In this document: positions 4,116 through 21,667 of the stretch, one piece after another | Layout: each line of letters starts with the position of its first letter | Numbering within the stretch: the first letter of the stretch is position 1 | Origin: a virus | Reading direction: 5' to 3' (one strand) | Virus record (IMG/VR): IMGVR_UViG_3300037264_002289 | Coordinates: 1-21,963 of that record | DNA length: 21,963 bases | Notes under the pieces: generated by a model | Seen by the model: only the letters and a program-made list of their open reading frames with translations | The model's database searches: none | Told to the model about the DNA's origin: nothing | Translations under genes and position numbers: made by a program

Positions 4116-4741
4116 TGGCGTTCATCAATCAGCGGCTGCCCGAGGAAGTGGAGAGGGGGTCTAGCGGCGGCCCATCCTTCAGCACGACGGTGGCTACGTT
4201 GTCGTCTGGCTTCGAGAAGCGCAACATCAACTGGTCTGCGTCTAGGCAGCAGTTCGATATTGGATACGGGATTCAGAGCAAAGAAGACTTTTCCGAAGTG
4301 CTGGCGTTTTTCTATGTATGCAACGGCCGTGCACACTCGTTCCGTTTCAAGGACTGGGGCGACTATGTCATAGGCAACGACGAGGCTGACAGTCCGCAAG
4401 AGATTGGTACGGGTGACGGCGCGGACACGACGTTTCAGATCGTAAAGAGGTACACAGTTGGTGCAACCACGCACGAGCGCGAGATTACTAAGCCGGTCAA
4501 CGGTACCGTGCGTGCGTTCGTGAATTTCGTAGAGAAGACTGAGGGCGCGGACTACACAGTAAACTATCTTACTGGGCTGATAACCTTCACAGTTTTTCCT
4601 CCTGCGGCACAGTCGGTTGGCGTGATTTGTGAGTTTGACGTAGCTGTTCGTTTCGATGTTGACAACTGTGACGTTACGCTGGAGACCTTTCAGGCTGGCG
4701 CGGTTCCTAGCTTACCCCTGATTGAGGTTCGCAGCGAGTGA
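4115..4741 (+). CDS. Distal tail protein, DUF2460 / GTA gp12-like
   Basis: This 208-aa protein matches the DUF2460 family (TIGR02217), the distal tail protein of the Rhodobacter gene transfer agent. It has the opening MAFINQRLPEEVERGSSGGP, an NINWSASRQQFDIGYGI strand, and the diagnostic GRAHSFRFKDWGDY near residues 71-84. The second half (T-x-FQIVKRY, ITKPVNGTVRAFVN, DYTVNYLTGLITF, FDVAVRFD) is the usual beta-barrel part. It forms the ring joining the last tail tube ring to the hub. GGAGG at 4102-4106 serves a start that overlaps the tape measure stop by one base. Its own TGA overlaps the next GTG start (GTGA), so translation is probably coupled. Confidence 0.93.
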   Translation: MAFINQRLPEEVERGSSGGPSFSTTVATLSSGFEKRNINWSASRQQFDIGYGIQSKEDFSEVLAFFYVCNGRAHSFRFKDWGDYVIGNDEADSPQEIGTGDGADTTFQIVKRYTVGATTHEREITKPVNGTVRAFVNFVEKTEGADYTVNYLTGLITFTVFPPAAQSVGVICEFDVAVRFDVDNCDVTLETFQAGAVPSLPLIEVRSE

Positions 4742-5805
4742 AGACGATCAGCGCAAACATGACCACCCACCTTGCGGGTACGGTCACGTCGCTGTGCTCG
4801 TTGTGGACGGTCACGCGTCTGGACGGTCAGGTCTTTCGCTTTACCGACCACGACCGCAACGTCGTGTACGGAGGCAACACTTTCTTCGCAGCGATGGGCT
4901 ACGACCGCACCGCTATCAAGAACGAAGCCTCGCTCGCGGTGGACGGTCTCAACGTGCGCAGCTTCTTTGATGCGGCGCACATTACCGAGGCCGATCTTCG
5001 CGCCGGCCTGTACGACCGAGCCGAAATCCATATCCGCACCGTAAACTGGGCGGACCCCGATGGCGACGGTGAAGTCAAGATGCGACGCGGGTGGTTCGGC
5101 GAAGTCACGGTCCCGCTGGATTCGGGCTTGTTCTCGACAGAGCTGCGGAGCTTGTCGCAAGCGTTGTCGCAGCAGCTACTCGAAGTCTATCAGCCTACGT
5201 GTCGTACGGACCTTGGCAGCACGAAGTGTGGTATACCGATTCAGCCGCCTGTACTCGGTCGGCTGGCCCTTGTCGCCGTGGGCCAGTTTTATCGAGTAGC
5301 CACAGATCTTGTTGCGCTCGAACAGGCGCAGTACGAGAACCGTATCTATGAAGTAACAACCCAAGGTACCACGGCGGGCGCGCAGCCGGTATACGACGAG
5401 ACGCCTGGCAATACTACGCTGGATGGCAGCGCCGTCCTCACTGCGCGAGAGGCGTGGACGCGGCACGCGGTTGTTGCGACAGTGACGGACCGGCGCGTGT
5501 TTACGATTACCGTGTCAGAGTCCCGTGCCACGGACGGCTGGTTCGCCAACGGAGCGATCACGTTTGAGAGCGGCAACAACGAGAACGATACCACCGAGGT
5601 TAAGGAGTGGATTGAGAGCACTTCGAGAGTAACGACATACTTGCCGTTGCCGTTCGACATTCAGGTTGGCGACCGACTGCGTCTGTACGTTGGTTGTGAC
5701 AAGCTGCGCTCGACCTGTTTCGAGAGGTTTGCAAACGTCATCAACTTCCGTGGCGAGCCTGACCTGCCGGGCCTCGACGCGCTGACACGCGTGGGGGAAA
5801 ACTAA
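4738..5805 (+). CDS. Tail hub protein, DUF2163 / GTA gp13-like, with putative iron-sulfur cysteines
   Basis: This 355-aa protein belongs to the DUF2163/BR0599 family (TIGR02218). The N-terminal half has FRFTDHDRNVVYGGNTF and the LEVYQPTCRTDLG element. The C-terminal end has LYVGCDKLRSTCFERF followed by NVINFRGEPDLPGLD, a typical family ending. Four cysteines at 155, 164, 320 and 327 form two pairs brought together by the fold. Related hubs (lambda gpL and relatives) bind a 4Fe-4S cluster through such cysteines, so a cluster is likely here. About 60 residues between the pairs (roughly 180-245: YEVTTQGTTAGAQPVYDE, then LDGSAVL...W) form a small extra beta domain. The start is GTG 4738, overlapping the upstream TGA. 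An internal ATG at 4759 is an alternative. Confidence 0.92.
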   Translation: MKTISANMTTHLAGTVTSLCSLWTVTRLDGQVFRFTDHDRNVVYGGNTFFAAMGYDRTAIKNEASLAVDGLNVRSFFDAAHITEADLRAGLYDRAEIHIRTVNWADPDGDGEVKMRRGWFGEVTVPLDSGLFSTELRSLSQALSQQLLEVYQPTCRTDLGSTKCGIPIQPPVLGRLALVAVGQFYRVATDLVALEQAQYENRIYEVTTQGTTAGAQPVYDETPGNTTLDGSAVLTAREAWTRHAVVATVTDRRVFTITVSESRATDGWFANGAITFESGNNENDTTEVKEWIESTSRVTTYLPLPFDIQVGDRLRLYVGCDKLRSTCFERFANVINFRGEPDLPGLDALTRVGEN

Positions 5806-5806
5806 C

Positions 5807-8800
5807 ATGTCGTGGCAGGGTTTGGTTCTTGGGATCGCGGGGGCAGTAGTCGGCGCTCGGTTCGGCGGAGCCACGGGCGCGCAGATCGGCTTCCTGATCG
5901 GAAGCCTTGCCGGCGCACTATTGTTCCCAGACTCGGCCAAGGGTCCCCGACTCGACGATCTGCGGATCACGACTTCCGCATACGGACAGCCCATGGCGTT
6001 GTGCTACGGGACGTGGCGCAAGGCCGGCAACGTCATCTGGTCCGAGGAAATTGAGGAAAAAAAGAAAAGCAGTCGCCAAGGTCTGGTCGGCCCCAAGGTC
6101 AAGGAGTACACCTACTTCCTCACGTTCGCCGTGGCGTTCTGCAACAACGAACAGGCGGACTTAATCCGCATTTGGGCCAACGGCACTCTGGTCTACGATG
6201 TGTCAGGCATCGTAACGTACCCTGAGCAGGAAATGGGCGAGACGTACGAAGACTACAAGGAGCGGCGCGAGCTGTTCCGCAACCTGTACCGTCGTGGCGC
6301 GGACGGCTTCTACCGCATGAGGGGGCTGTCGTTCGTCTTCTATCCCGGCAGCGAGACGCAAGAAGTCGATCCCACGATAGAAGCTGTTGTGGGCGTAGGG
6401 CAGACTCCCGCATACAGGGGCCAGTGCTATATCGTGTTCAACCGTCTTCCGCTGGCCGAGTTCGGTAATCGGATGCCGAACATCGAGTGTGAGATCGCCC
6501 AAACTGTTGTCGAAGTGGGTGAGAATAATTCTGTAGACCTGGCTCTGCCCAGAGAAGGCGGTACGTTGGATACCGCCAACAACCTGTTCTTCGCTGTGGA
6601 TTGGATACGCCAGTTGGCGTTCGCCATTGACACTGCTGGTGACGTAAGCCTAAGCGGCATACGGCGACTCAATATCGAGACGATGGAGGAAGATCGCCAG
6701 CGACTAAATGAAGATGCGTTTGCCCAGATAAACACCGAGGACTTCAACGCGGCCACTGTCAAGGTACGCAACAGCGTGGGCTGTGTGCTGCCTGTCAGTG
6801 GCAACCTGTTCGTTCAACTAGAAACCAGTGCGGGCACAAACAACCAGCCCTTTGCGATTGTAGATGGCAACACGCTGCGGGAGATAGCGCGTAATGGTGT
6901 ACCTGACACGGGCAGCCTAACCTTCAATCGTGAGACAGAGAGGTTTGGTGTGGCCAGCGGCTGCGCACCGATAGTAGCTAACGGTTCGCTTGGACCGCAA
7001 GAATTTGCTATCGTGCGCAACGACAACGGATCAATCGGGGTGTTCTTGGGCGGGACGATGCCGTTTTGCATCTGGTCTACTGATAGCGACGAAAACGCGT
7101 TCGTCGTAGAAGACGTGAAAGCAGTGTGCGGGGGAAAGACCGGCACAGGCTGGGGCTATGGCTGGGCTACGGTGGGCAGCGACTACAGCCCGTCGCCGCA
7201 AAGTGCTCCGCTGACTATCATGAGGATCAAGGTGCCCTATCTGCCGCAGCGCGACCTCAAGACTGAGCTGCTTAACCTTGCCATAGCGGACTATTTCAGC
7301 CCCCGCTCGGCCCAGGTCGCTTCGGCCATGCTCATTATCAAGACCGTCATTTGGAACTACACGGACAGCCAACTGAGATTCGAGACACTGGGCACGTACG
7401 ACCCCGGCGATCTGATTCCTGGGGAGACAGCCCTTCAGACCGCAGGGCGGGGACTGGTCTACGACGAGACCCATGCCGCAGTTATGTTCCACGCTCGCGC
7501 GGACAGCAATAGCGCGAACTACATCATATCGGTTTCAGACCTCGACGGCTCTGTTCGATGGCGCACCGAGTACCAGGGCGGCGAGCCCAACAACAACAGC
7601 ACCTGGTCGCACAGCCGCGTGCAGAACGATACGTTCAGCTTCCTTGATCTGAACGGCGATGGGCACAGCATCAACACCAGGACGGGCGAGCTTCTAGTAG
7701 ACAACGTGGACTTCCCAGGAGGCGTGGCGACCGGCGCGCTTGGCGCGTACGACAGCCGATCAGACTCCTTCGTCGGGCTGACTGGCGACACAGCCAGCGT
7801 GTGGGCGCGGTGGTGGTTTAGCCGGCGTGATCGACAGCCGGTCACGCTTGCCTCGATCGTGACCGACATCTGTGTGCGCTGTGGGCTGTCAGCCGGCGAC
7901 ATCAATGTAACCGACCTTGTGGATGACGATGTTACGGGCTACCTTGTGGTTGGGCAGAACAGCGGCCGTAACGCTATCTCGCCGCTGTCCTTGGTGTACT
8001 TCTTCGACGGAGTCGAGAGCGACTTCGTTTTGAAATTTCCACAGCGTGGCGGTGCTGTGGCTCGTACCATTGACACTGACGACATGCTCCGCGATAACGA
8101 CGGCCATCTGGTTACGGAAAGCCGCAGGCAGGAGATAGAATTACCAGCGCGACTTAGTCTGTCTTACATGAACTACAATCGCGACTACGAGATCAACGTG
8201 CAGGCGGCTAAGCGAATACTTGAGCCCGCTAGTGCGATGGAGAGCCGCGAACAAGCTGACATACAGACCACCATTATAATGGACGCGAACCAGGCTGCAC
8301 AGTTCGTTGAGAGGGCGTTGTTCGCGACCTGGATCGAGCGCATGTCCTACGGCCACAGAGTGCCGTGGACGCACCTCGATCTTGATCCGACCGACGTTAT
8401 CGCGATCACCACGGACACGGAGACCCTCGAACGCGTGCGCATCAGCACGATAGACGTGGGCGATGACCTGCACATGGAGCTGTCCGAGCTGCGCGAGGAA
8501 GAAGGGGAGTGGGAAAGCACGGCGGTAGGAGATGCGGGCGCGATTCCAGACATGCCGGTGGGAGCTACACGCTGTAAATTGCTCCTGCTAGACTGTCCTC
8601 TGTTGGAAGACGTTGACGAGCAGTTCGGCCGCGCAGGTGCGCCTCTGTACTACCTGATGGGTGGTTATGGCTTCCCAGGCTGGACGGCTGCAACCCTTTA
8701 CAAGAGCGAGACGGGCGCATTGAGTGAGTATGAGATCGCGGGGCGCGAGACTAATGAAATGATATGGGGTGTTGCCGTTGACACTCTCGGTGATCCGGTT

Positions 8801-9571
8801 TCGCCGTGGATGACCGACACCGTGAACACCTTGACTGTTGAATTTCAGGCCGGTGACACGTCGGGTCTAGTGTCCATTACTACCCTGCAACTATTGGCCG
8901 GTATGAACCGAGCGGCTGTCCTCAAGGCCAACGGGGAGGTCGAGATCATTCATTATAAGAACGTCACCGACAACGGTGACGGCACGTTCACGTTCGACAC
9001 GTTCTTGCGAGCCCGACGCGGCACCGACACCCTGTGCTACAACCACCTACCGGGGGAGATCTTTTTGCCACTGCCCGACTATGAAGACGACGCAGTCTCT
9101 GTAGACTATGTGCCGCTGAAGCTCGAAGAAATACGCCAGTCGCGCTTCTACAAAGGCGTGGGCGACCGACAGTTGTTCGAGGACGCCGAGACCGTCGGCA
9201 AGATCAGCGAGGGCCGCGCGCTGATGCCTTATGCACCGGCCAACATTCATACGTCCCTTAGTGGCAATGACGTGGTGTTTACTTGGTTCCGACGCGACCG
9301 TCTCGGTGCAGAAATAGAGTTGGACGACTTGGGCGGTGACATTTTGTTGAGCGAAGACGAGGAGGTGTACGAGATCGACGTGCTCGATGAACCGGGGGGC
9401 GACATTGTGCGTACTATCATCGAGATACCTGGGCCGACGTACACGTACACCGACGCCGATCAAACCACGGATGGGCTAGAGGCAGAGGCTCAATTGACGG
9501 TTCGCATCTATCAGATAAGCGGTCAGGTCGGTCGTGGTTTCGCGCAAGAGATCACGTTGGACGTACGATAA
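5807..9571 (+). CDS. Tail tip / host specificity protein (GTA gp15- and lambda J-like) with beta-propeller-like insertion
   Basis: This 1254-aa protein follows the hub gene by one base. Residues 4-40 form a hydrophobic glycine-zipper stretch (GLVLGIAGAVVGARFGGATG), typical of this family and probably released into membranes or packed in the tail lumen. Residues ~50-235 carry the conserved first hub domain, ending in PAYRGQCYIVFNRLPLAEFG and NRMPNIECEI. Normal homologues then run on into VTLASIVTDICVRCGL, but here that motif appears only at ~680, leaving a ~420-residue repeat-rich insert. Residues ~700-900 match the J-like hub domains (RLSLSYMNYNRDYEIN). Residues ~1050-1120 hold the FLRARRGTDTLCYNHLPGE motif, and an FN3-like domain ends the protein. 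No GTA TIM-barrel glycosidase domain is evident. The gene's TAA overlaps the next ATG. Confidence 0.88.
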   Translation: MSWQGLVLGIAGAVVGARFGGATGAQIGFLIGSLAGALLFPDSAKGPRLDDLRITTSAYGQPMALCYGTWRKAGNVIWSEEIEEKKKSSRQGLVGPKVKEYTYFLTFAVAFCNNEQADLIRIWANGTLVYDVSGIVTYPEQEMGETYEDYKERRELFRNLYRRGADGFYRMRGLSFVFYPGSETQEVDPTIEAVVGVGQTPAYRGQCYIVFNRLPLAEFGNRMPNIECEIAQTVVEVGENNSVDLALPREGGTLDTANNLFFAVDWIRQLAFAIDTAGDVSLSGIRRLNIETMEEDRQRLNEDAFAQINTEDFNAATVKVRNSVGCVLPVSGNLFVQLETSAGTNNQPFAIVDGNTLREIARNGVPDTGSLTFNRETERFGVASGCAPIVANGSLGPQEFAIVRNDNGSIGVFLGGTMPFCIWSTDSDENAFVVEDVKAVCGGKTGTGWGYGWATVGSDYSPSPQSAPLTIMRIKVPYLPQRDLKTELLNLAIADYFSPRSAQVASAMLIIKTVIWNYTDSQLRFETLGTYDPGDLIPGETALQTAGRGLVYDETHAAVMFHARADSNSANYIISVSDLDGSVRWRTEYQGGEPNNNSTWSHSRVQNDTFSFLDLNGDGHSINTRTGELLVDNVDFPGGVATGALGAYDSRSDSFVGLTGDTASVWARWWFSRRDRQPVTLASIVTDICVRCGLSAGDINVTDLVDDDVTGYLVVGQNSGRNAISPLSLVYFFDGVESDFVLKFPQRGGAVARTIDTDDMLRDNDGHLVTESRRQEIELPARLSLSYMNYNRDYEINVQAAKRILEPASAMESREQADIQTTIIMDANQAAQFVERALFATWIERMSYGHRVPWTHLDLDPTDVIAITTDTETLERVRISTIDVGDDLHMELSELREEEGEWESTAVGDAGAIPDMPVGATRCKLLLLDCPLLEDVDEQFGRAGAPLYYLMGGYGFPGWTAATLYKSETGALSEYEIAGRETNEMIWGVAVDTLGDPVSPWMTDTVNTLTVEFQAGDTSGLVSITTLQLLAGMNRAAVLKANGEVEIIHYKNVTDNGDGTFTFDTFLRARRGTDTLCYNHLPGEIFLPLPDYEDDAVSVDYVPLKLEEIRQSRFYKGVGDRQLFEDAETVGKISEGRALMPYAPANIHTSLSGNDVVFTWFRRDRLGAEIELDDLGGDILLSEDEEVYEIDVLDEPGGDIVRTIIEIPGPTYTYTDADQTTDGLEAEAQLTVRIYQISGQVGRGFAQEITLDVR

Positions 9572-10971
9572 TGCCAGTTGCTAACCCATGGTCACGTTAC
9601 ACTTGGCGCCCTGCGGAGCAGCGCGACTACATTCGGGACAACGGCCCCGAAGCAGCGCGGCTGTTGGCCGAGGCGGTTGGATCGACTACCTACGCTGTTT
9701 TGCCACCGCAGTCGCTTCAGGGTGACGCAGTAGAGCCAGACTACTTTGCTCTGTTCGTTCACACACACGATCACGGCAGCAACACTGACCTGCTTGCAGA
9801 CGACCACACGCAGTACGCCCTACTCGCAGGACGCGCGGCCAACCAGACACTGGTTGGCGGTACGACCGCGTCAGGTTCGTTGACGCATCAGAGCACGGCG
9901 GGCATGGGCACAACGGACTTCGTTCGCTTTTTGGTCGGCAACAATGGCGCGGTTGAAGCGATGCGCATCCTGACTAGTGGGGCCATTGGGATTGGCACCA
10001 CGACAGTCACGAACCCCGGCAAGGTCGAGATCAAGCAGACCATTACTGCCAATACCGGGACTGCCCACACTCTCCGCGTTGAAAATCAGTTTGCGCCAAC
10101 AGCGGCGGCCGACAACAACATCACGGCCATCAACGTCCTGAATCAGTGGACCAACGACAACGCTGCGGGCAACAGCACCGGCTCGCTGAACGCCGGCATC
10201 TTTGTCGCGTCCAACCGCTCTGAACAGCTGCTGGCCAATCTGTCGGGCAACACGGCGCAGGCCGCACTTGGCCCCACGTCTGGAGCAGCGGTGGACGGCG
10301 CTACGGCCACTACGATGCGCGGCATGGTAATGCTCGCGCTCGACAACGCGCTGACCGGCACCACGACGCGCATGATGGCGTCGTACTCGGAAGCCCGGAA
10401 TTCAGGCACCCAGACCATCACAAGGATGACCGGTCACATCATCGGGGTGGGGTCTACAAACAGCGGCTCCGGGGCAGGTGTCATAACCGAAGCCATGGGG
10501 CTGCGCGTCGGTGGGCGCGATCAGTCTCTGACCAACATCCTGCTGGCGGGGACCATTACCAGCGCTGTGATGGTAGAGATCGACGACTGGCTCTCAGGGG
10601 CCGGCGTCACGTACACCGACGACCCGATCCAACTGCGGCTCAATGCGCTGACGGAAACGGGAGCCATCGCGATTCAACAGCTCGGCACGGTGGGTCACAA
10701 CCGAATCCAAGGCTTTACCATGATAGGCGTCAATGCCGCCCCGGACGCGCCGCTTGAGATCAACTCAACAGCGAGCCTGGGCCAGCAACTCCTGACCCTG
10801 GATCAGGACGACACAGATCAGCCGTTCGTAGATTTTCAGGGGAACACGGGGGCCAACGCTACGGCTAGCATTTCTACTTTTACCGTAGCCGGTGCAACGG
10901 CAGGCTTTATTCAGATCGAGATAAACGGAACGAAGCGGTGGATTCAGGTCTACAACGACCCGACCGCGTAA
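9571..10971 (+). CDS. Tail fibre protein, short paralogue
   Basis: This 466-aa protein has a modular fibre layout. An N-terminal anchor of ~40 residues (NPWSRYTWRPAEQRDYI, then LLAEAVGS) is shared with the 1805-aa fibre downstream. A DDHTQYALLAGRAANQT motif at 77-93 is a widespread phage fibre element. GIGTTT follows at 140-145, then a beta-helix-like shaft. A module around residues 325-395 (AGTITSAVMVEIDDW, PIQLRLNAL) matches duplicated parts of the long fibre. The C-terminal TAGFIQIEINGTKRWIQVYN is a common phage ending. It probably attaches to the tail tip and contacts host surface glycans. ATG 9571 overlaps the tip gene stop, with no clear Shine-Dalgarno, so translational coupling is likely. 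Confidence 0.85.
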   Translation: MPVANPWSRYTWRPAEQRDYIRDNGPEAARLLAEAVGSTTYAVLPPQSLQGDAVEPDYFALFVHTHDHGSNTDLLADDHTQYALLAGRAANQTLVGGTTASGSLTHQSTAGMGTTDFVRFLVGNNGAVEAMRILTSGAIGIGTTTVTNPGKVEIKQTITANTGTAHTLRVENQFAPTAAADNNITAINVLNQWTNDNAAGNSTGSLNAGIFVASNRSEQLLANLSGNTAQAALGPTSGAAVDGATATTMRGMVMLALDNALTGTTTRMMASYSEARNSGTQTITRMTGHIIGVGSTNSGSGAGVITEAMGLRVGGRDQSLTNILLAGTITSAVMVEIDDWLSGAGVTYTDDPIQLRLNALTETGAIAIQQLGTVGHNRIQGFTMIGVNAAPDAPLEINSTASLGQQLLTLDQDDTDQPFVDFQGNTGANATASISTFTVAGATAGFIQIEINGTKRWIQVYNDPTA

Positions 10972-11290: not shown

Positions 11291-14200
11291 ATGGCCGAAA
11301 TACAGAATCCATGGTTGGCCGAGCACTGGAACATGACGGCTCAGTCCGCCTTCATCCAGCAGCACGGCAGACCCAAGGCGGACGAGTTTGCGAAAGCGGC
11401 CGGTAGTTTTGTGGGTGCGACCGCGCCAGCTAAGCGTGACCGCGTCGTTCATACCACGATCATCAAGCCGACGCGCAATCTAGACATCAATCAGAACCGC
11501 GATGTTCGGACGGTCGGCGCGAACGCACCGGACGATGGTGACGTACTGACCTTCGATGCATCGGCCCTGCCTGCGCCCGGCCAGTGGGTGCCGATGGCAC
11601 CGACAGGCGGCGGGGGCGGTGCGCCAGTCAGTGCGCAGTACCTGACTCTGGCTCTCAACGGTACGCTTAGCGCCGAGCGACGATTCGTGCCGCGCGCCGG
11701 GCTAGAGGCTACGGATGGCGGGGTCAACGCCGACTACACGCTGGACCTCGCGACGGGCCTGATCGACTACTTCCACGATGAAGGCGACGGCCCCGTGGCC
11801 GTCACGGTCGAAGAGTTCCACAAGAACATCACGTTCCGCGTGTCTGATGGCGCGCCGGTGCCCACTACTGATTTTGATATCGTGTTCCCTGTCAGCCAGG
11901 CGCGTGCATTTTTCTGCGTCATTAACGAGACGAGTGTCAATCTTGGGATACTGAAAACCGGCTACAGCAGCGGGCTTGAGATCGGTCCATTCGAAACAAT
12001 CGTGGTACTCGATGACGGCATTAAGTTGCGACAGATAGGACGCACCGAGGCCATAGAGTCGCACATACCGGGCACGCCCGGAAACTTCGTTGGTATTTCG
12101 AGCACGAACTTTCTCGAAGACAGCGGTTTCGACGTGACAGATTTTGCTGCCGCTGCGCACGCGCACTCAGCCGCCGACATCACCAGCGGCCTTTTGGCGC
12201 TCACGCGAGGAGGCACCAACGCCGACCTCGATGCAGCGGTAGCTTTGAACATCATACGAGTCAACGCTGCGGGCACAGCACTCGAAGACAGCGGTTTCGA
12301 CGTGACAGATTTTGCGGCGACCGCGCACGCGCACTCAGCCGCTGACATCACCAGCGGGCTACTTGCCCTGGCGCGCGGCGGCACTAACGCGGACCTGGGC
12401 GCGGGCACGCCGCTCAATCTGATACGGCTCAACGCCGGGGGAACCGCGCTCGAAGACGCGGGCTTCGACACGGGGGACTTCCTGACGCCTGCTGCCGCTG
12501 ACGCGGTCTACCTACGCCTTGACACTGCCAACGACCCGATGCAGGCCGACCTAGACATGGGTGGCTTCGCGTTGAAGAACACGGGACTTGTCGAGGGTGG
12601 GGGTGCGGTTGCAGGATTTCTCGCCCTGGCACCTGATGACACAACCACAATAAGCGCAGGAGGTCTACGGGGGGTTGCCGTTGATCCGTTCTTCACCGCT
12701 AATAATGGTGGTTCCTGGGTGGGGATTAGTTCCCTGTCAGTCGTCCCCTCCGTCTATACCGCTGACGGCACTACAGGGGCTTGCGTATTTGCGGTGCTCA
12801 CGTTCGGGGTGACCAGTGGCGCGGGCTCCACCATTCTCTTATCGAACACGGACATCAACCCGTGCGCGGGGACACTATTCAACCACGGGCAGCGGTATCG
12901 CTCTGAGAGCGCAGGTCAGATTGTCGCTGCCTTTACTCTGTTGGATACACCTAGCTTCGATTCGGTGGGAGCTACAGCAGCCCTTGCCGCGCAGTATAGA
13001 GGGGTGTACACCGCTCCGAGATTTACCGCGTCGGCCGGTGGTACGGGCACCACGAGCACTTGCGATCACTTTACCGCCTTGCTCAGCACTGACGTTGGCT
13101 GGACTATCCCAGACCGTCGGGGCTTCTACTACAGACAGGCTTTAGGCACTGGGGCAGTCACCGATGAGGCCGCCCTCTACATTGGAGGCTTCGCGGCCAC
13201 CGGTAACAGATACACGCTTTACTCCCCGGACACCACCGGGGTCATGCTCCACGCCGGGAGTGTACGGATCGGCGCAGCACCCGCGACCCTAGATACCCTG
13301 AACGTTGACGGATCTTCTTTCCTTGAGCACGTCGCCGTAGAAGATGACGACTACGCCTTTGGAATAGAGTGCCGCGCAGCAGGGCTCGGCGATGTCAAGG
13401 CGCTAGGTATTCACTATGTCACCGGGGCTCTCGCAGCGGGCGAACGCGGAGCGGCGGTTCTGGTAGGCGTTGACGGAACCACGGCAGCGGGCGGCGCCAT
13501 CGCAGGGCTTACGGTAGTTGCAACCGAGACAGCAGCTACGGCGGTGGTTGGCCTAGCGGTTGGCGCGTTAGTCGGACCCATCTTTCAGTTTTCGGGTACG
13601 TTCGCCGATGCTGATTCAATCCTCAACAATGCTGCCGATGTGCTAGCCGCACTTTCTACGGGCGGCGCAGGGAACATCTCGGTATTCGTCGCTGACAACG
13701 ACACGGTGACGATTGGGTTCGCGTCGGAATTTGAAGAAATTGAAATCATCGTAGACACCCCGTCGTCAGGAGGGGGCATCGCCCCGACGTTTGAGTTCTC
13801 AACCGGCGTAGGCACATGGGCCACGTTCAGCCCGACAGACGGTACGAACGGGCTCAGGAACACGGGCGTAATCGTTTGGCGCGAGAGCGACATCCCCTCG
13901 TGGGCAGTGGGCGTGGGCGCGGAGTTTCTGATCCGAATCACACGCACGCGAAACTCGCTTACAACCACGCCAATCATTGACAAGGTCCAAGTCTCCGCAA
14001 CCGTAAAGTATATGTGGGACGCGACCGGCAGCGTCGTCATCAACAAACTGGAAAGCACGATTGTAACGGGCACCCCGCCGTTCGTCGTCGCGAGCACCAC
14101 GAAGGTTGATAACCTCAACGTTGATCTGCTCGACAACGAAACTGGGGCGTACTACTTAGACAGCGCCAACTTCACCGGGACCGAATGGGACGACCTGACG

Positions 14201-16708
14201 GACGGGCTAGGGACAACGCTTCACACGCACGTCCACGCCAATCTGACTTCGCTCATCGCGCCTGCAGACGACCACACCCAATACATCTACTGGCCAGGGC
14301 GCGCAGGCGGCCAAACCGCGAAGGGCGGCACGGCACCGGCAGACTTCCTGAAACTACAGAGCACTTCCGGTGCTGGCAGCGGTGACTACATCGCAATGCT
14401 CGGCGGCACTGACGGTGCCACCGAGATAGCGCGCTTCTTGGGATCGGGCAAGGTAGGCATCGGAACGACTACGGCTGCCAACGCATCCAGCTTCGAGGTA
14501 GCGACCACCACAACCGCGCTCGTGGCCGGAACCTACGCGGGGAGTTACATGGGCCAGACGTGGGCGCCGTCTGGGGCTATAACGGGCTCCCCAGATGTAA
14601 TCACGTTTCGCACTCGGGCTACATATGAAGACGGCAACGTTAACTCAACTACGGGGCAGATACGAGGGTTTCAGGTCATCGCAGAACACCTGGGGGATAG
14701 TAGTATAGCTGGTGTCCAGGGCGCGCAGCTTTTTGCTATCGTTGGTCCACTAGCCGGCGCCGAGTCTGGAACGTCGTTTGCAACCGACGTAGTCGGCATC
14801 ATACTTCAGTCGGTAGCAAACGCGGACATGGGCGCGGCAGCTACTCCAATGTCTACGCGCGTCATTGGTGGCGCGTTTGCGGCAGACAACCGTGGGCGCG
14901 GCACGGTTGGCACCATGGCGCCGGGTACGTTCTCCATCGGGTGCCAGGACGCCAACTCGATCATCACTAACGCATTTGGTATTCGTGTCGCTGGTATCGT
15001 GCTACAGGGCGCGCTTGCTGGGATAGACATCCTGACCGCAGGCACTATAACGAACGGCACGATGGTGGAGATCGGGGACTGGTCCAGTGGGCCGACCTAC
15101 ACCAACCAGCCTGTGCAGCTGAAGTTGCTCGCGGCAAGTGTTGCGGGCCGCATCGGCATCTACCAGGACGGGACGAATGCCTACAACAAATTCGAGGGCT
15201 CAACCACGCTTGGAGCCGACGACGTTCCGACGACTGGCTTCGCGGCTGACGTGCGAGGCGACCTGCGGGTCAGTGGATACGTAGACATCACGGCAGCATC
15301 GGCGGTCGCGCCGCGCTTGTCGGCTTCGTTTACTTCGACCAACACGTCTGGCACACGACGCACCGCTTTGTTGACTGCGTTCATGGACCCGAGCGCGCCT
15401 ACGTCCGAGACACTGGCCGCGCTGATCGCGACTTCGGCCTCAACGGCGGGCGACACTAACGCTCTTTCCGGCACCATATACGGCGCCCAGTTTGCGTCGC
15501 AGCATTTGTCCACCGCCCTCTTGACTACGCTCTACGGGACGCACGTCACAACGTCGCTTGGTCAGGATACCGGCGCGGAAACAGCCGCATCGTCTGCGAC
15601 CAACGTGGGTGGGATCACGTCAGTGTGTGTTGGTAACGCCGACATGGGCGCGGCCGCTACACTGATGGCGACGCGCATGTACGGCGTTGGGTCTTTCTGC
15701 ACCAATATCGGCAGAGGTACAGTCACCACCTTCGCGGCCGGGCACTTCGGCATCGGGATTCAGGATGCGAACGCCATAATCGCAACCGCCTATGCAGCCC
15801 GTTTCTCTGGTCTCAATGCTGCGGACGGGAACACTCTAACAGCGGGAACGATCACTAATGGTTCGTTCGTCGAGATCGGCGACTGGGTCGCCGGCCCCAC
15901 GTACACCAACCAGCCCGTCCAGCTCAAGCTCGTGGCGGCAACTGTTGCTGGTCGCATCGGTATCTACCAGGACGGTACGAACGCCTACAATAAGTTTGAA
16001 GGTAAGACCGGCCTGGGGATAGACGCCGTACCCGATGCATGGGCGGAATTGGGCGCGGCTACGGCCACAATCGCGCCCTTAAAGTTCAACTCTGCGGCGC
16101 TGATTGCATCGCCCCTGAGGGGTTGCGTCGAATTTCTTACAGATGACTACTACGGCACGATTACCACGGGTGACGCCCGCAAGAAGTTCGTTCTGGACAA
16201 CGGCGTCGATCTGGTTTCCGGCCGAGTCCCTTTCGCCACGACTAACGGCCGGCTGGTGGACGACGCAGACATGACCTTCTCCGGGGCGACCCTGACGGTA
16301 ACAGGCGTCGCGGTAGGAGCGACCGGCCTGACTTCTACGGGCCTCATCAAGTCTTCATCTGCATCGGCCGGCGTAGGCTACGCCGCGGGCGCGGGCTCGA
16401 CCGTAACGCAGCTCACCAGCAAAGCGACGACCGTAATCATCAACGCCTTATGCGGCACCATCACGACGCACAACGCTGCGCTCGCCAACAACGCCCAAGT
16501 TACTTTCACCGTCACTAACTCGTCGATGGCGGCGACCGACGTAGTAATACTCAACCACCAGTCGGGCGGCACGCTTGGAGTCTACATCATCAGCGCGGGC
16601 GGCGCAGCGGCAGGTTCGTTCACGATCACCCTGGGTAATGAGAGTGGCGCGTCGCTGTCGGAAGCCTTGGTGCTGCGGTTCGCGATAATCAAGGCTGTGG
16701 CGGCATGA
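11291..16708 (+). CDS. Giant tail fibre / adhesin, long paralogue
   Basis: This 1805-aa protein contains many separate modules. Residues 1-40 are an anchor (NPWLAEHW, QQHG, FAKAAGS) paralogous to the short fibre. Residues ~150-255 contain DGAPVPT (186-192), shared with the 401-aa fibre downstream. Residues 275-386 hold two 56-residue repeats (SGFDVTDF, HAHSAADITSGLLAL, RGGTNADL), with a third begun. Residues ~830-910 look like a beta-sandwich (NGLRNTGVIVW, FLIRITRTRNSLTTTP). DDHTQY at 993-998 and IGTTT near 1057 repeat the short fibre layout. Two large related shaft modules lie at ~1070-1303 and ~1335-1571. The last ~115 residues (GYAAGAGSTVTQLTSKAT, ALANNAQVTFTVTNS, SGASLSEALVLRFAIIK) are a C-terminal beta-sandwich seen on many phage structural proteins, likely receptor binding or trimer capping. 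Confidence 0.88.
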   Translation: MAEIQNPWLAEHWNMTAQSAFIQQHGRPKADEFAKAAGSFVGATAPAKRDRVVHTTIIKPTRNLDINQNRDVRTVGANAPDDGDVLTFDASALPAPGQWVPMAPTGGGGGAPVSAQYLTLALNGTLSAERRFVPRAGLEATDGGVNADYTLDLATGLIDYFHDEGDGPVAVTVEEFHKNITFRVSDGAPVPTTDFDIVFPVSQARAFFCVINETSVNLGILKTGYSSGLEIGPFETIVVLDDGIKLRQIGRTEAIESHIPGTPGNFVGISSTNFLEDSGFDVTDFAAAAHAHSAADITSGLLALTRGGTNADLDAAVALNIIRVNAAGTALEDSGFDVTDFAATAHAHSAADITSGLLALARGGTNADLGAGTPLNLIRLNAGGTALEDAGFDTGDFLTPAAADAVYLRLDTANDPMQADLDMGGFALKNTGLVEGGGAVAGFLALAPDDTTTISAGGLRGVAVDPFFTANNGGSWVGISSLSVVPSVYTADGTTGACVFAVLTFGVTSGAGSTILLSNTDINPCAGTLFNHGQRYRSESAGQIVAAFTLLDTPSFDSVGATAALAAQYRGVYTAPRFTASAGGTGTTSTCDHFTALLSTDVGWTIPDRRGFYYRQALGTGAVTDEAALYIGGFAATGNRYTLYSPDTTGVMLHAGSVRIGAAPATLDTLNVDGSSFLEHVAVEDDDYAFGIECRAAGLGDVKALGIHYVTGALAAGERGAAVLVGVDGTTAAGGAIAGLTVVATETAATAVVGLAVGALVGPIFQFSGTFADADSILNNAADVLAALSTGGAGNISVFVADNDTVTIGFASEFEEIEIIVDTPSSGGGIAPTFEFSTGVGTWATFSPTDGTNGLRNTGVIVWRESDIPSWAVGVGAEFLIRITRTRNSLTTTPIIDKVQVSATVKYMWDATGSVVINKLESTIVTGTPPFVVASTTKVDNLNVDLLDNETGAYYLDSANFTGTEWDDLTDGLGTTLHTHVHANLTSLIAPADDHTQYIYWPGRAGGQTAKGGTAPADFLKLQSTSGAGSGDYIAMLGGTDGATEIARFLGSGKVGIGTTTAANASSFEVATTTTALVAGTYAGSYMGQTWAPSGAITGSPDVITFRTRATYEDGNVNSTTGQIRGFQVIAEHLGDSSIAGVQGAQLFAIVGPLAGAESGTSFATDVVGIILQSVANADMGAAATPMSTRVIGGAFAADNRGRGTVGTMAPGTFSIGCQDANSIITNAFGIRVAGIVLQGALAGIDILTAGTITNGTMVEIGDWSSGPTYTNQPVQLKLLAASVAGRIGIYQDGTNAYNKFEGSTTLGADDVPTTGFAADVRGDLRVSGYVDITAASAVAPRLSASFTSTNTSGTRRTALLTAFMDPSAPTSETLAALIATSASTAGDTNALSGTIYGAQFASQHLSTALLTTLYGTHVTTSLGQDTGAETAASSATNVGGITSVCVGNADMGAAATLMATRMYGVGSFCTNIGRGTVTTFAAGHFGIGIQDANAIIATAYAARFSGLNAADGNTLTAGTITNGSFVEIGDWVAGPTYTNQPVQLKLVAATVAGRIGIYQDGTNAYNKFEGKTGLGIDAVPDAWAELGAATATIAPLKFNSAALIASPLRGCVEFLTDDYYGTITTGDARKKFVLDNGVDLVSGRVPFATTNGRLVDDADMTFSGATLTVTGVAVGATGLTSTGLIKSSSASAGVGYAAGAGSTVTQLTSKATTVIINALCGTITTHNAALANNAQVTFTVTNSSMAATDVVILNHQSGGTLGVYIISAGGAAAGSFTITLGNESGASLSEALVLRFAIIKAVAA
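12113..12482 (+). repeat. 168-bp in-frame tandem repeat in the long fibre (two full copies, one partial)
   Basis: Copies begin at 12113, 12281 and 12449, an exact 168-bp (56-codon) period. The first 34 bases of copies 1 and 2 are identical (12113-12146 and 12281-12314). The third copy starts CTCGAAGACGCGGGCTTCGA and then diverges. The protein unit contains SGFDVTDF, AHAHSAADITSG, RGGTNADL and the NAxGTALE linker, typical of phage fibre stalk repeats. Differences at synonymous sites elsewhere show that the duplication is not brand new. Confidence 0.9.
14500..16003 (+). repeat. Large internal protein-level duplication in the long fibre shaft
   Basis: The segment ending at 15199 and the segment ending at 16003 are paralogous. 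They share NADMGAAAT (coded at ~14819 and ~15635), RGTV, QDAN, the LTAGTITNG...VEIGDW block, PTYTNQPVQLKL and the long AGRIGIYQDGTNAYNKFEG end. The conserved parts are about 381 and 369 bp, and weaker similarity reaches back ~300 bp further in each. The short fibre (9571-10971) holds a diverged third copy around its AGTITSAVMVEIDDW block. Confidence 0.85.
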
Positions 16709-17112: not shown

Positions 17113-18318
17113 GTGAGTGACAACTTAGCTCTAGATCAAGTAGCTGAAGGCCAGGACTCTTCTGAGATCACGATAAATGATAAGGGTGGGCAGCTCGACG
17201 CCGCCATCACCGAAGTGTTGTCGGTCGCGGTCACGAACACCAACGCCTACACACTCAGTGCAACCCAATTGCGCCGCAACTTCATGTTCCATGTCATAGA
17301 TGGCGCGCCGGTTCCTACGGCGACCATCACACTGACCGTGCCGGGCTCGATTGAGCGCGGCACCTTCGGCGTAATCAATGATACCTCGTTTGACGTGGAG
17401 GTCGAGATCACAGGCCAGACCGAGCCGGTCGTAACCGTGGGATCGGGGGACACGTCTGCGATCTACAGCGACGGCATCAACACGCGTTCAATCGGGGGCG
17501 GCGGCGGGGGAGCGTTCTTGCCGATAGACGGTAGCCTCCCCATGACGGGCGATCTTGAGATCGTCGTGGGCGGCATTGACATCAACATAGACCCAGCCAG
17601 CGCTACCACTTCTTACTTGACCACAGACAGTTTGTTTTGGGAGTTTGTCGTAGACTTCGATGGTACGTCGCGCAGTATGCTTTTGTCGGCGTCTTCGCTG
17701 ATCCCTTCTGTCACCGACGTGCTTGCTTTAGGCGAGTCGTCGTTTCGGTGGAGCCAGTTGCTCGTCGGCACAGGCACGTCAGACTTTCGGGGCCACGTCG
17801 GAATTGACAACCAGATGGAGCTTCGGCTCTATGAGCTAGACGCGAACGGCTCCAGCTATTCAGCGCTGCGTGCCGCAGCAGCGATGGCCGGAACCGTAAC
17901 CTACACCCTTCCCGATGCAGACGGTGCGGCCGGCGCAGAGCTGAGCACCAGCGGCGCGGGCGTCCTGTCGTGGGTGCCGCCGCCGTACGACGTGGTCGGC
18001 TTCTTCGCGACCGCACCAGGCAACGGCGAGCTAATCACGCGCGTCGTGTTCAACCGCGCCGTGACCATGGCTACGAACCTGACTGGCTCGCAGGGCTTTC
18101 TGGGTACTGCTACGACGCTTACGACTACCTTTGACCTTCAGAAGAACGGCGTCAGCTTTGGCTCTATGACGTTCACTGGAGTCGGCGCGACCGTCGCGAC
18201 CTTCACGTCAACGGCCGCCAGCTTCGCGGCTGGCGACCGCTTCGAGATCGTGGGCCAGAACCCAGCCGACGCATCAGCGGCCAACCTGAGCTACGCGCTA
18301 CGGGCAACACGTGCCTGA
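17113..18318 (+). CDS. Tail fibre / adhesin protein sharing a domain with the giant fibre
   Basis: This 401-aa protein starts at GTG 17113, seven bases after AGGAGT (17101-17106). Residues ~15-128 form a beta domain with EITINDKGG, FMFHVIDGAPVPT (63-69), VPGSIERGTFGVINDTS and a closing DGINTRSIG. The giant fibre has the same block at its residues ~155-255. A Gly-rich hinge (GGGGGG at ~128-133) follows, then FLPIDGSLPMTGDL, a common fibre motif. The middle (SSFRWSQLLVGTG, YTLPDADGAAGAELST) is a shaft with the TLPDADG element frequent in fibres. Residues ~290-401 (YDVVGFFATAPGNGELITR, VVFNRAV, FAAGDRFEIVGQNPADAS) form a C-terminal domain widespread among phage structural proteins. Its stop overlaps the next GTG start. 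Confidence 0.85.
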   Translation: MSDNLALDQVAEGQDSSEITINDKGGQLDAAITEVLSVAVTNTNAYTLSATQLRRNFMFHVIDGAPVPTATITLTVPGSIERGTFGVINDTSFDVEVEITGQTEPVVTVGSGDTSAIYSDGINTRSIGGGGGGAFLPIDGSLPMTGDLEIVVGGIDINIDPASATTSYLTTDSLFWEFVVDFDGTSRSMLLSASSLIPSVTDVLALGESSFRWSQLLVGTGTSDFRGHVGIDNQMELRLYELDANGSSYSALRAAAAMAGTVTYTLPDADGAAGAELSTSGAGVLSWVPPPYDVVGFFATAPGNGELITRVVFNRAVTMATNLTGSQGFLGTATTLTTTFDLQKNGVSFGSMTFTGVGATVATFTSTAASFAAGDRFEIVGQNPADASAANLSYALRATRA

Positions 18319-19360
18319 TCCGACGCCAATACTGTTCGCTGGCGGTGAGTTGGAAGCCTTCGACACAATCGGCGGCTTCGGCATCAACGACTTCGTGTTT
18401 GCCGGCGCGGGGGGCTCGTTCGACGCAAACTTCGCAACCGGCGCGATTGCACTTGGAGGCTTCGGCTGGGCGGAAGCGGTCTTTCGCGATGCGACCACTG
18501 GTGCCGTCTCGCCGCAGACCAACTTCTGGGTGCACATGGAGGTCGTGCCCGGCACGCTCGGCGGCTCCACCATCGCGCCGTACTTCGTGCTGGTCGATTC
18601 TTCTACCGGCACTGTCGCATTCCAGTTTGACTGCGACGGCTCGGCAGCCACACACAACTTGGAATACTGGACGGGTGCTGCGTTTACGGCGATAACACCC
18701 AACGACACCCTGGTGGCGGCGACGCTTTACAGACTAGACTTTTGGATCAAGATTGACAACGTCAACGGGGAGCTGCGTTACTACCGCGATGGTGTCCTAA
18801 GGCAGACCTTCAGCGGCGACACGCTGTACAGCGGCTTCTCTGTGATCGACACGCTCGTGCTGTTTTGCCCCAACAATGAGACCGGCACCAACGCGACGAC
18901 GAGCACGAAGTACAGCCAAGTCATCGTATCGACACAGGACACCCGTGGCATGCGGCTGGCGACGCTCAACGCCACCGCGCTTGGGACTACGAGTGCGTGG
19001 ACTGGTGTCAACGCAGACATCAGTGACACGGTTGTGGTCAATGAAAACACGTTCCTTTCAAGCATCGCCAACGGCAACGTGTCTACGCACACCGCGACAG
19101 ACTTGACCACCGTGGCCGGCGGCTACCAGCCAATCGCGGTTGTGGTCGCCGCACGCGCGCGCAAAGACAGTACCGGCCCGCAGAATTTGCATCTGGGTGT
19201 GCGGACCAACGCGGCCGACAACTTCCCTGACGCTGTCACCGGCCTGGAGGCGGGGCTTCGAGGCTTTCGCCGCGTCATGCACGCCAATCCCGTCACCGGG
19301 CTGAGCTGGACGAAGACCGAGATCAATGCGATTGAGGTCGGCGTCAAGGCGGTGACGTAA
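18311..19360 (+). CDS. Lectin-like tail adhesin, tandem paralogue 1
   Basis: This is a 349-aa protein. The likely start is GTG 18311, overlapping the previous stop by eight bases. No better in-frame ATG lies nearby, and the N-terminus (ILFAGGE) aligns with the two following genes. The N-terminal half (about 1-205) looks like a concanavalin/LamG-type jelly roll: LEYWTGAAF at 117-125, KIDNVNGELRYYRDGVLRQTFSGDT at ~147-171, and the YSQVIVSTQDTRG strand at 201-213. The C-terminal half carries SAWTG, ADI, GPQNL, VRTNA and the ending SWTKTEINAIEVGVKAV, a second module common in siphophage proteins. A carbohydrate-binding role is inferred. No signal peptide is present, as expected for a virion protein. 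Confidence 0.8.
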   Translation: MPDPTPILFAGGELEAFDTIGGFGINDFVFAGAGGSFDANFATGAIALGGFGWAEAVFRDATTGAVSPQTNFWVHMEVVPGTLGGSTIAPYFVLVDSSTGTVAFQFDCDGSAATHNLEYWTGAAFTAITPNDTLVAATLYRLDFWIKIDNVNGELRYYRDGVLRQTFSGDTLYSGFSVIDTLVLFCPNNETGTNATTSTKYSQVIVSTQDTRGMRLATLNATALGTTSAWTGVNADISDTVVVNENTFLSSIANGNVSTHTATDLTTVAGGYQPIAVVVAARARKDSTGPQNLHLGVRTNAADNFPDAVTGLEAGLRGFRRVMHANPVTGLSWTKTEINAIEVGVKAVT

Positions 19361-20448
19361 TGGCCGACTTGTTCGTAGGGTCCGAAAACGACAGCTACTA
19401 CCTGCTGGGCCACCATGTCCAGAGTGCGTCGGTAACGTCCCTCTTTCGAGGTACGGCGTCACCGGACATAGATACCAACTTCTCGCAGAACGGCGTGGGA
19501 CCGTACAACAACGCGCATCTGGTCATAGACATCGCTGGCACCACGGAGCTGTGGTTTCACTGCTTGGTCAACTTTCGGGGCAACAGCACGACGGCGCTGT
19601 TTGTGCCCATCAAATTTATCGACACTGCATCGGGCGCATTCCCCGGCCAGGTTGTCGCGCAACTGGACCCCGACCTCGGTGTGGCACCGTACAACGGCAC
19701 CAGCGTGTTTGACCTGGAGTATTGGGACGGCGCTGCGTTTCAGGCGTGCGCCGGCCGTGGCGCGGATCGCCGAAGCATCAGGTTTGCCACTGGCTGTCGC
19801 CAGAAGATCGACATCCACATCAAGATCGACAACGTCGCCGGCTGGTTTCGCTTCTACGTGGACGGCGTGCTGCGACAAGAATTCACTGGCGATACACTCA
19901 ACGCCGGCTACACCCAGATCAATCGCATCATCTTGCACACCAACGTCTCTCCTGATTTGGGGTCAGCGTCCGCGACAGTGTATACTGAGGTCATTGTATC
20001 TCAGGACGATACGCGTGGCCGTCGAGTAGCGAATCTGGAGCCCACGGCAGACGGGGCGAACACGGCGTGGGGCGGCGCGATAGCGGAGATCAATGATGAC
20101 GCGCTCCGCGACACGGAGTTCATATCGAGCACGACGGCGAACCAAGTCGAGACCTACGTCACATCGGACTTGAGCGCGGTGGCGGACAACCTCTACGTCA
20201 TGTCCATCGTGACCAACGCCCGCGCCAAGATCGGCAACCTGGGAACCGGGCCGCAGAACCTGCAACACGTAGTGCGATCCAACAGCGTGGACTACTTCAG
20301 CGCGAACGTGACGCGCCCTAACGGCGGCGCGCTCGACGCGCGAACAGGGCCGACGCAAGCCATCTGGCTCGTCGATCCCAACACGAGTGCGGCGTGGGCT
20401 ACTGCGGCGGTCAACGCAATGCAGATCGGAGTCAAGTCGATAGCGTAG
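19360..20448 (+). CDS. Lectin-like tail adhesin, tandem paralogue 2
   Basis: This 362-aa protein has its ATG at 19360, overlapping the upstream TAA. AAGG at 19346-19349 is a modest ribosome binding site. The same two-module plan as its neighbours is visible: LFVGSEND near the start, LEYWDGAAF at 119-127, KIDNVAGWFRFYVDGVLRQEFTGDT at ~155-179, VIVSQDDTRG to 220, then NTAWGG, AEI, GPQNLQHVVRSN, FSANVT and the ending AAVNAMQIGVKSI. The region ~130-148 (CAGRGADRRSIRFATGC) is an insertion with two cysteines not found in the other copies. That is a candidate variable loop on the presumed binding face. It is closest to paralogue 1 in the DNTRG-type core (VDGVLRQ versus RDGVLRQ). Confidence 0.82.
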   Translation: MADLFVGSENDSYYLLGHHVQSASVTSLFRGTASPDIDTNFSQNGVGPYNNAHLVIDIAGTTELWFHCLVNFRGNSTTALFVPIKFIDTASGAFPGQVVAQLDPDLGVAPYNGTSVFDLEYWDGAAFQACAGRGADRRSIRFATGCRQKIDIHIKIDNVAGWFRFYVDGVLRQEFTGDTLNAGYTQINRIILHTNVSPDLGSASATVYTEVIVSQDDTRGRRVANLEPTADGANTAWGGAIAEINDDALRDTEFISSTTANQVETYVTSDLSAVADNLYVMSIVTNARAKIGNLGTGPQNLQHVVRSNSVDYFSANVTRPNGGALDARTGPTQAIWLVDPNTSAAWATAAVNAMQIGVKSIA

Positions 20449-20450
20449 CC

Positions 20451-21455
20451 ATGGCGATACTATTTGCATCAACTGAGGAAGACCCGTACGTCATCGTCAA
20501 CGCGGCGCAGATATTCAGCACGCGCGACGAGACCGACAACACCGACTTCACGCGCACAGACGGCGCGGTAAACCTGTCATCGACCGCGACGCTGACCGCG
20601 ACGTTCACGGCTTCGGACGAACTGTGGGTAGTGGCGTCTATCTCGCACACCACGGTCAACATCAACAATGATGATCCGTACCTGCAACTCAAGGATAGCG
20701 GTACGGGCCAAGTCCTGCTGCAACTAGACGCCGACAATGGCCTGTACAACATGGAATACTGGAACGGCGCCGCGTTCGTGGAAATCTCCAGCGCCGATTT
20801 GGAGATTCCGATCAGCGCCACGCTGATCCGCCACACGATCTATTGCAAGCTGGACAACAGCGTCGGCGTGTTCGAGTGGTACATGGATGATTGCTTGGTG
20901 GCGCGCTTCACGGGCGACACGATCCTGACTGCGGCTACGACGGTGGACACATTGATCCTGGCGAGTGCGAACACTACTGACACCGGCTCGCTCAACTCAA
21001 CGGTGTTCAGCGAAGTCATCGTCAGCGAGGAGCCGACGTGGGGCCTGCGCTTGTTTGCGAATTACGCGACGGGAGACGGCACGAACACGGCGTGGACTGG
21101 AACTTTCGCGGACATCGACGAGCCCGGTGAGGCCAACGACGCTGACTTCATCACCGACGATGTCAACGGCGACATCGAGACGTTCGCAAACCAGAACCTC
21201 TCGACCGAGGCGGCCGGCATGACGCCCATCTGCCTTGTGACGGCTTTCCGTGGGCAGAATAGTGGCGCGGGCTCGGCCAACAACATTCAGCACTGCGTGC
21301 GAAGCACCAGCGACTTCTTCAGCGCGAACGTGACGGGCCTGGGCGTGACGCTCGCGCCCTTCTACACAATTTGGGCGCAGAACCCCAACGGTCCCACAGC
21401 GTGGACATCGACGACCATCAACGCGATGGAATTTGGCGTGAGGGCGCAAACCTAA
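20451..21455 (+). CDS. Lectin-like tail adhesin, tandem paralogue 3
   Basis: This 334-aa protein starts at ATG 20451. A longer in-frame reading from 20394 is unlikely because it would overlap the previous gene by 55 bases, and only the 20451 start gives MAILFASTEED, aligning with MADLFVGSEND of paralogue 2. Motifs in order are MEYWNGAAF at 101-109, KLDNSVGVFEWYMDDCLVARFTGDT to 157, VIVSEEPTWG at ~189-198, NTAWTG, ADI, NIQHCVRS, FFSANVTGLG and the ending TTINAMEFGVRAQT. The DTRG motif of the other copies is PTWG here, and the DGVL turn is DDCL, so the core is more diverged. A 19-bp stretch (21317-21335) is identical to 20295-20313 in paralogue 2. The TAA overlaps the next ATG. Confidence 0.82.
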   Translation: MAILFASTEEDPYVIVNAAQIFSTRDETDNTDFTRTDGAVNLSSTATLTATFTASDELWVVASISHTTVNINNDDPYLQLKDSGTGQVLLQLDADNGLYNMEYWNGAAFVEISSADLEIPISATLIRHTIYCKLDNSVGVFEWYMDDCLVARFTGDTILTAATTVDTLILASANTTDTGSLNSTVFSEVIVSEEPTWGLRLFANYATGDGTNTAWTGTFADIDEPGEANDADFITDDVNGDIETFANQNLSTEAAGMTPICLVTAFRGQNSGAGSANNIQHCVRSTSDFFSANVTGLGVTLAPFYTIWAQNPNGPTAWTSTTINAMEFGVRAQT

Positions 21456-21667
21456 TGTCTGTAACAGTCACGAAGAACACCGCGCATACCGTACTCGGCA
21501 TGACCGTCGGCGACGGGCTCGCGGTCAGCAAACTGAATTCGATGGCGGTGCTCGGCTATCGCCCCGCAGGGATTTCCTGCACGAAGCTCTGCGGCTACGC
21601 CGTGCTGGCAGTGTTCGCAGCGCCAACCACGCCGCAGACCCGACGGCCCAACCTGGTGATGTCATGA
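21455..21667 (+). CDS. Small protein with three decapeptide repeats
   Basis: This 70-aa protein starts at ATG 21455, overlapping the upstream TAA. A longer in-frame ORF from 21371 would lie inside the previous gene and is rejected. Three similar decapeptides are visible: VTKNTAHTVL (5-14), VSKLNSMAVL (24-33) and CTKLCGYAVL (42-51), spaced 18-19 residues apart. The third is followed by a proline/arginine tail. Small phage proteins with repeated VSKL-x-x-YAVL motifs are familiar from siphophage genomes near fibre and lysis genes. Their function is not known to me. Its stop overlaps the next start (ATGA). Confidence 0.75.
   Translation: MSVTVTKNTAHTVLGMTVGDGLAVSKLNSMAVLGYRPAGISCTKLCGYAVLAVFAAPTTPQTRRPNLVMS

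Follow-up and report, generated by a model that had tools for sequence, protein, structure and literature searches.

Three tandem PHROG 6368 genes in a phage tail module as candidate virion surface adhesins

Three adjacent genes of a virus record of 21,963 bases (the window, meaning the whole stretch of DNA that was analysed) are probably, at a rough probability of 0.6, virion surface adhesins of the PHROG 6368 family, with duplicated and diverged heads of differing binding preference encoded in one coupled operon. We infer that the N-terminal ConA/LamG-like lectin-type domain of each protein would touch a cell-surface or matrix glycan and that the C-terminal beta-sandwich domain would serve for attachment to the tail tip or to partners. 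The copies would have arisen via duplication within the lineage of the window phage and then diverged, and heads with different binding preferences would be co-produced from the one operon.

Genes of the array and the surrounding tail module

Judged from its sequence, the window can be read as the tail module of a phage with a long tail: it has tail-assembly chaperones, a tape measure, a GTA-type hub and fibre-like genes, followed by the array and a small ORF. The array was located 3' of the GTA-type hub and the fibre genes, as follows.

5807..9571, + strand: tail hub of the GTA gp15 (Rcc01698) type, which places the array in the tail module
11291..16708, + strand: 1805 aa fibre-like protein
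17113..18318, + strand: 401 aa tail fibre-like protein (phrog_11660 tail protein N-terminal, phrog_7049 tail fibre C-terminal)
18311..19360, + strand: copy 1, 349 aa, GTG start, PHROG 6368 two-domain protein
19360..20448, + strand: copy 2, 362 aa, ATG start, PHROG 6368, longer loop with two cysteines
20451..21455, + strand: copy 3, 334 aa, ATG start, PHROG 6368, structure modelled
21455..21667, + strand: small ORF, 70 aa, TAATG coupling with copy 3

The three adjacent ORFs of 349, 362 and 334 aa described in an earlier note on this DNA were found to be present and tightly packed, and they directly follow the fibre genes as described there, with the upstream 401 aa tail fibre-like gene ending at 18318. 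The start of copy 1 overlaps the stop of this preceding gene by 8 nt, the start of copy 2 is coupled to copy 1 via TAATG, and copy 3 begins two bases past the stop of copy 2 (the longest ORF of copy 3 runs from GTG at 20394, and ATG at 20451 yields the family N-terminus MAILFA). The start/stop overlaps suggest translational coupling. The 401 aa protein was also tested as a fourth paralogue and was rejected.

Further observations were made in the rest of the module. A 466 aa fibre-like protein (9571-10971) matches the 1805 aa protein twice, at residues 977-1313 (36% identity) and at residues 1328-1609, so the fibre region is likewise duplicated. Two tail-assembly chaperone ORFs (246-1057) are likely joined by a -1 frameshift fusion, since a slippery A AAA AAC (704-710) keeps the frame of the first ORF, and the frame of the second is open from position 668 onwards. 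No NlpC/P60 peptidase ORF (GTA orf14 type) was found at 4738-5807 between the orf13-like and orf15-like genes of the window, whereas phage V10 has such an ORF between these genes.

Paralogy, family membership and predicted fold

The three copies are paralogues, with a similarity far past chance in BLASTP (33-38% pairwise identity, E 4e-50 to 5e-43, full-length or nearly). All seven motif groups that had been listed for a shared full-length plan were found in the copies, and the unique loop of copy 2 was confirmed to be longer and to carry two cysteines (about C130 and C146). The DTRG and DGVL elements said to be lost from copy 3 are indeed missing, but they are substituted (by PTWG and DDCL) and not deleted. 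The most divergent stretch of the copies is N-domain residues 11-80. Strands are 43% identical vs 30% for loops, which is compatible with the proposal that divergence is greatest at binding surfaces but not diagnostic of it, as strands are usually better conserved than loops in proteins.

Copies 1, 2 and 3 matched PHROG 6368 over most of the profile (E 2e-36, 6e-46 and 2e-33, respectively). Homologues were obtained from Brevundimonas siphophages, N4-like roseophages, Ruegeria phage V10, Loktanella phage pCB2051-A, Erythrobacter phage XM05, Rhodobacter phages, Vibrio phage VpV262, Vibrio jumbo phages, IMG/VR contigs and a Collimonas genome contig, and part of the IMG/VR scans and of the genome scans yielded no relative. 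A match in an archaeal MAG (L065) covers 30 residues and was set aside as probably spurious. Sequence searches of Pfam, NCBIfam and PDB gave nothing significant, and a literature search gave nothing directly on PHROG 6368 arrays.

Copy 3 was modelled with AlphaFold2 by using an alignment of 34 relatives (pLDDT 84.6, pTM 0.87); an early model of copy 1 from a three-sequence alignment (pLDDT 41) was too poor for use. The copy 3 model consists of two beta domains, the N-domain (residues 1-193) and the C-domain (residues 196-334). The N-domain is predicted to be a ConA/LamG-like jelly-roll sandwich, with VIA Z scores of 14-18 over 167-195 residues; its best VIA match is 2zzj (Z 17.8, rmsd 3.1 over 195 residues), followed by Cip1 (Z 17.0) and sialidase BT_1020 (Z 16.6). 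Foldseek matches for copy 3 include laminin LG, neurexin LNS and the tailspike of cyanopodophage Pan3. For the C-domain, searched within whole copy 3, no match was found among the PDB matches listed, from which a novel fold should not be concluded. In the viral structure library, whole copy 3 is covered by a VpV262 protein (TM 0.84) and by a Roseovarius sp. 217 phage protein (TM 0.79); a protein of Achromobacter phage AchV4 named virion structural protein was matched as well, and the matches include several runs of near-consecutive accessions, which are probably arrays.

The two-domain plan with a ConA/LamG-like N-domain, as proposed earlier, was thus borne out for copy 3 by the model and the structural searches, and copies 1 and 2 would take the same fold according to their alignment with copy 3. 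The predicted N-domain fold is that of ConA-like/LamG domains such as neurexin LNS, laminin LG, the sialidase lectin domain and PL20 glucuronan lyase, whereas the copies differ from these domains in a sequence below Pfam detection and in a second domain outside the listed PDB matches. None of the window copies reached the cut-off of the Pfam LamG profile, which 1 of 35 relatives matched at E 0.026, so membership in ConA/LamG is a claim on the fold only. At this level the lectin-like reading of the modelled domain is well supported.

The same structural matches would also suit virion-carried polysaccharide-degrading enzymes (depolymerase or lyase), since glucuronan lyase 2zzj, GH131 and two alginate lyase matches (PL14 and Aly36B) are among the top VIA matches, and glycoside hydrolase is the annotation of the relatives in RcMenchie and vB_SupP_AX. 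However, the ConA-like fold is common to many non-enzymes, the nearly invariant W59, Y144, G210, P312 and W318 look structural, and D129, the only widely conserved acid, is T in copy 3. The family alignment holds few invariant residues and none that is obviously catalytic, as judged from conservation. An enzymatic role is accordingly regarded as improbable.

Virion presence and genomic position of the relatives

A virion link was obtained for one distant family member, in the podovirus relative RPP1, a roseophage. RPP1 gp82, a 323 aa PHROG 6368 protein (E 2.8e-55), is one of 13 proteins identified by mass spectrometry in CsCl-purified virions (PMC4193335). DSS3phi2 gp79 and SUFG_00074, which are listed as its homologues (PMC4193335), are the same genes as those matched by the PHROG 6368 homologue searches. 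A second PHROG 6368 copy of RPP1 (orf34) is absent from the 13 published virion proteins (PMC4193335). These N4-like roseophage proteins belong to the same family as the window copies, with the full profile and a similar length, but they are about 20% identical overall to the window copies and occur as one copy, or as two far apart, with no local array.

The mass spectrometry of RPP1 gives virion presence without position, and the PHROG 6368 gene of N4-like roseophages adjoins the terminase genes, away from obvious tail genes. Both points would suit capsid decorations or head fibres in place of tail proteins. We nevertheless hold such a location to be improbable for the three proteins, with the gene lying among tail genes in the window and in long-tailed phages (Strzyga, Leszy, V10 and XM05).

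Copy number and recurrent duplication in the family

Tandem triplication had been called unusual in the earlier note, and this was not supported, as arrays of 2 to 6 same-family copies occur in unrelated phages. By profile search, Vibrio jumbo phage vB_VpaM_sm033 (sm033) has six PHROG 6368 copies in two triplets, Vibrio jumbo phage vB_pir03 (pir03) has five or six in tandem, and IMG/VR contig 3300017963_000228 carries a local array of five. Leszy and Fanboy have two adjacent copies, Strzyga likewise but weakly, and V10 has three dispersed copies. The number per phage is from one to six, with a single copy in many phages.

The two Vibrio jumbo phages share tandem same-family paralogues with the window, but their copies are of 430-465 aa, carry a C-terminal extension and fall in a separate clade. 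A gene of about 500 aa lies ahead of each sm033 triplet (6707-8209 and 14137-15636; the pair is 43% identical), and the pir03 array is likewise preceded by a relative of these genes. The Brevundimonas siphophages Strzyga, Polewnik, Leszy and Fanboy are the closest named full-length relatives (up to 33% identity by tblastn) and, like the window, have PHROG 6368 genes in the tail module. Their copies are adjacent in Leszy and Fanboy and, weakly, in Strzyga; however, they have two copies of which the second is very divergent, whereas the three window copies are similar. A neighbouring 361 aa protein of Strzyga (7912-8997) matches the family in its C-terminal part only, and the PHROG 6368 C-terminal domain may therefore be paired with other heads too.

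In the family tree, which has long branches and an unsure deep order, one group is formed by the window copies (SH-aLRT 89, under the mark of 95), another by the four main copies of the IMG/VR array L058 (100) and a third by the six sm033 copies (99). With the window, sm033 and IMG/VR copies in separate clades, duplication has probably recurred independently across lineages. The window array therefore adds an example to a family that has been little studied, rather than revealing a new type of system.

Of 861 pairs, which are not independent of one another, 83% showed lower conservation of the N-domain than of the C-domain. The difference is strongest in other arrays, with 21-29% for the N-domain vs 34-53% identity for the C-domain in array L058, and small among the window copies (about 0.32 vs 0.38). 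Lower N-domain conservation is consistent with a head that varies in binding and is carried on a mount common to the copies, as a small effect in the window. That the C-domains are more alike than the N-domains would also suit an obligate hetero-oligomer (e.g. a heterotrimer) at the tail tip with a distinct position for each copy, for which the tight gene coupling would co-express the copies. The two sm033 blocks of three, with a 500 aa gene at the head of each and these two genes paralogous, also speak for it. A fixed triplet is not the rule of the family, however, since copy number varies from phage to phage and a single copy suffices in many, and we consider this arrangement unlikely. Parallel, diverging specificities of the three adhesins are favoured over it on account of this variability.

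More tentatively, and with some doubt, PHROG 6368 arrays might represent a general phage strategy in which a modular set of lectin heads, produced together and sharing a C-terminal mount, is expanded independently in several phage lineages, giving a rapidly diverging receptor repertoire. PHROGs assigns no function to PHROG 6368, and the family lacks any sequence relative with a solved structure. Taken together, the predicted fold, the virion link and the repeated local duplication mark it as a candidate, open to testing, for a role in receptor recognition among phages of Alphaproteobacteria and vibrios.
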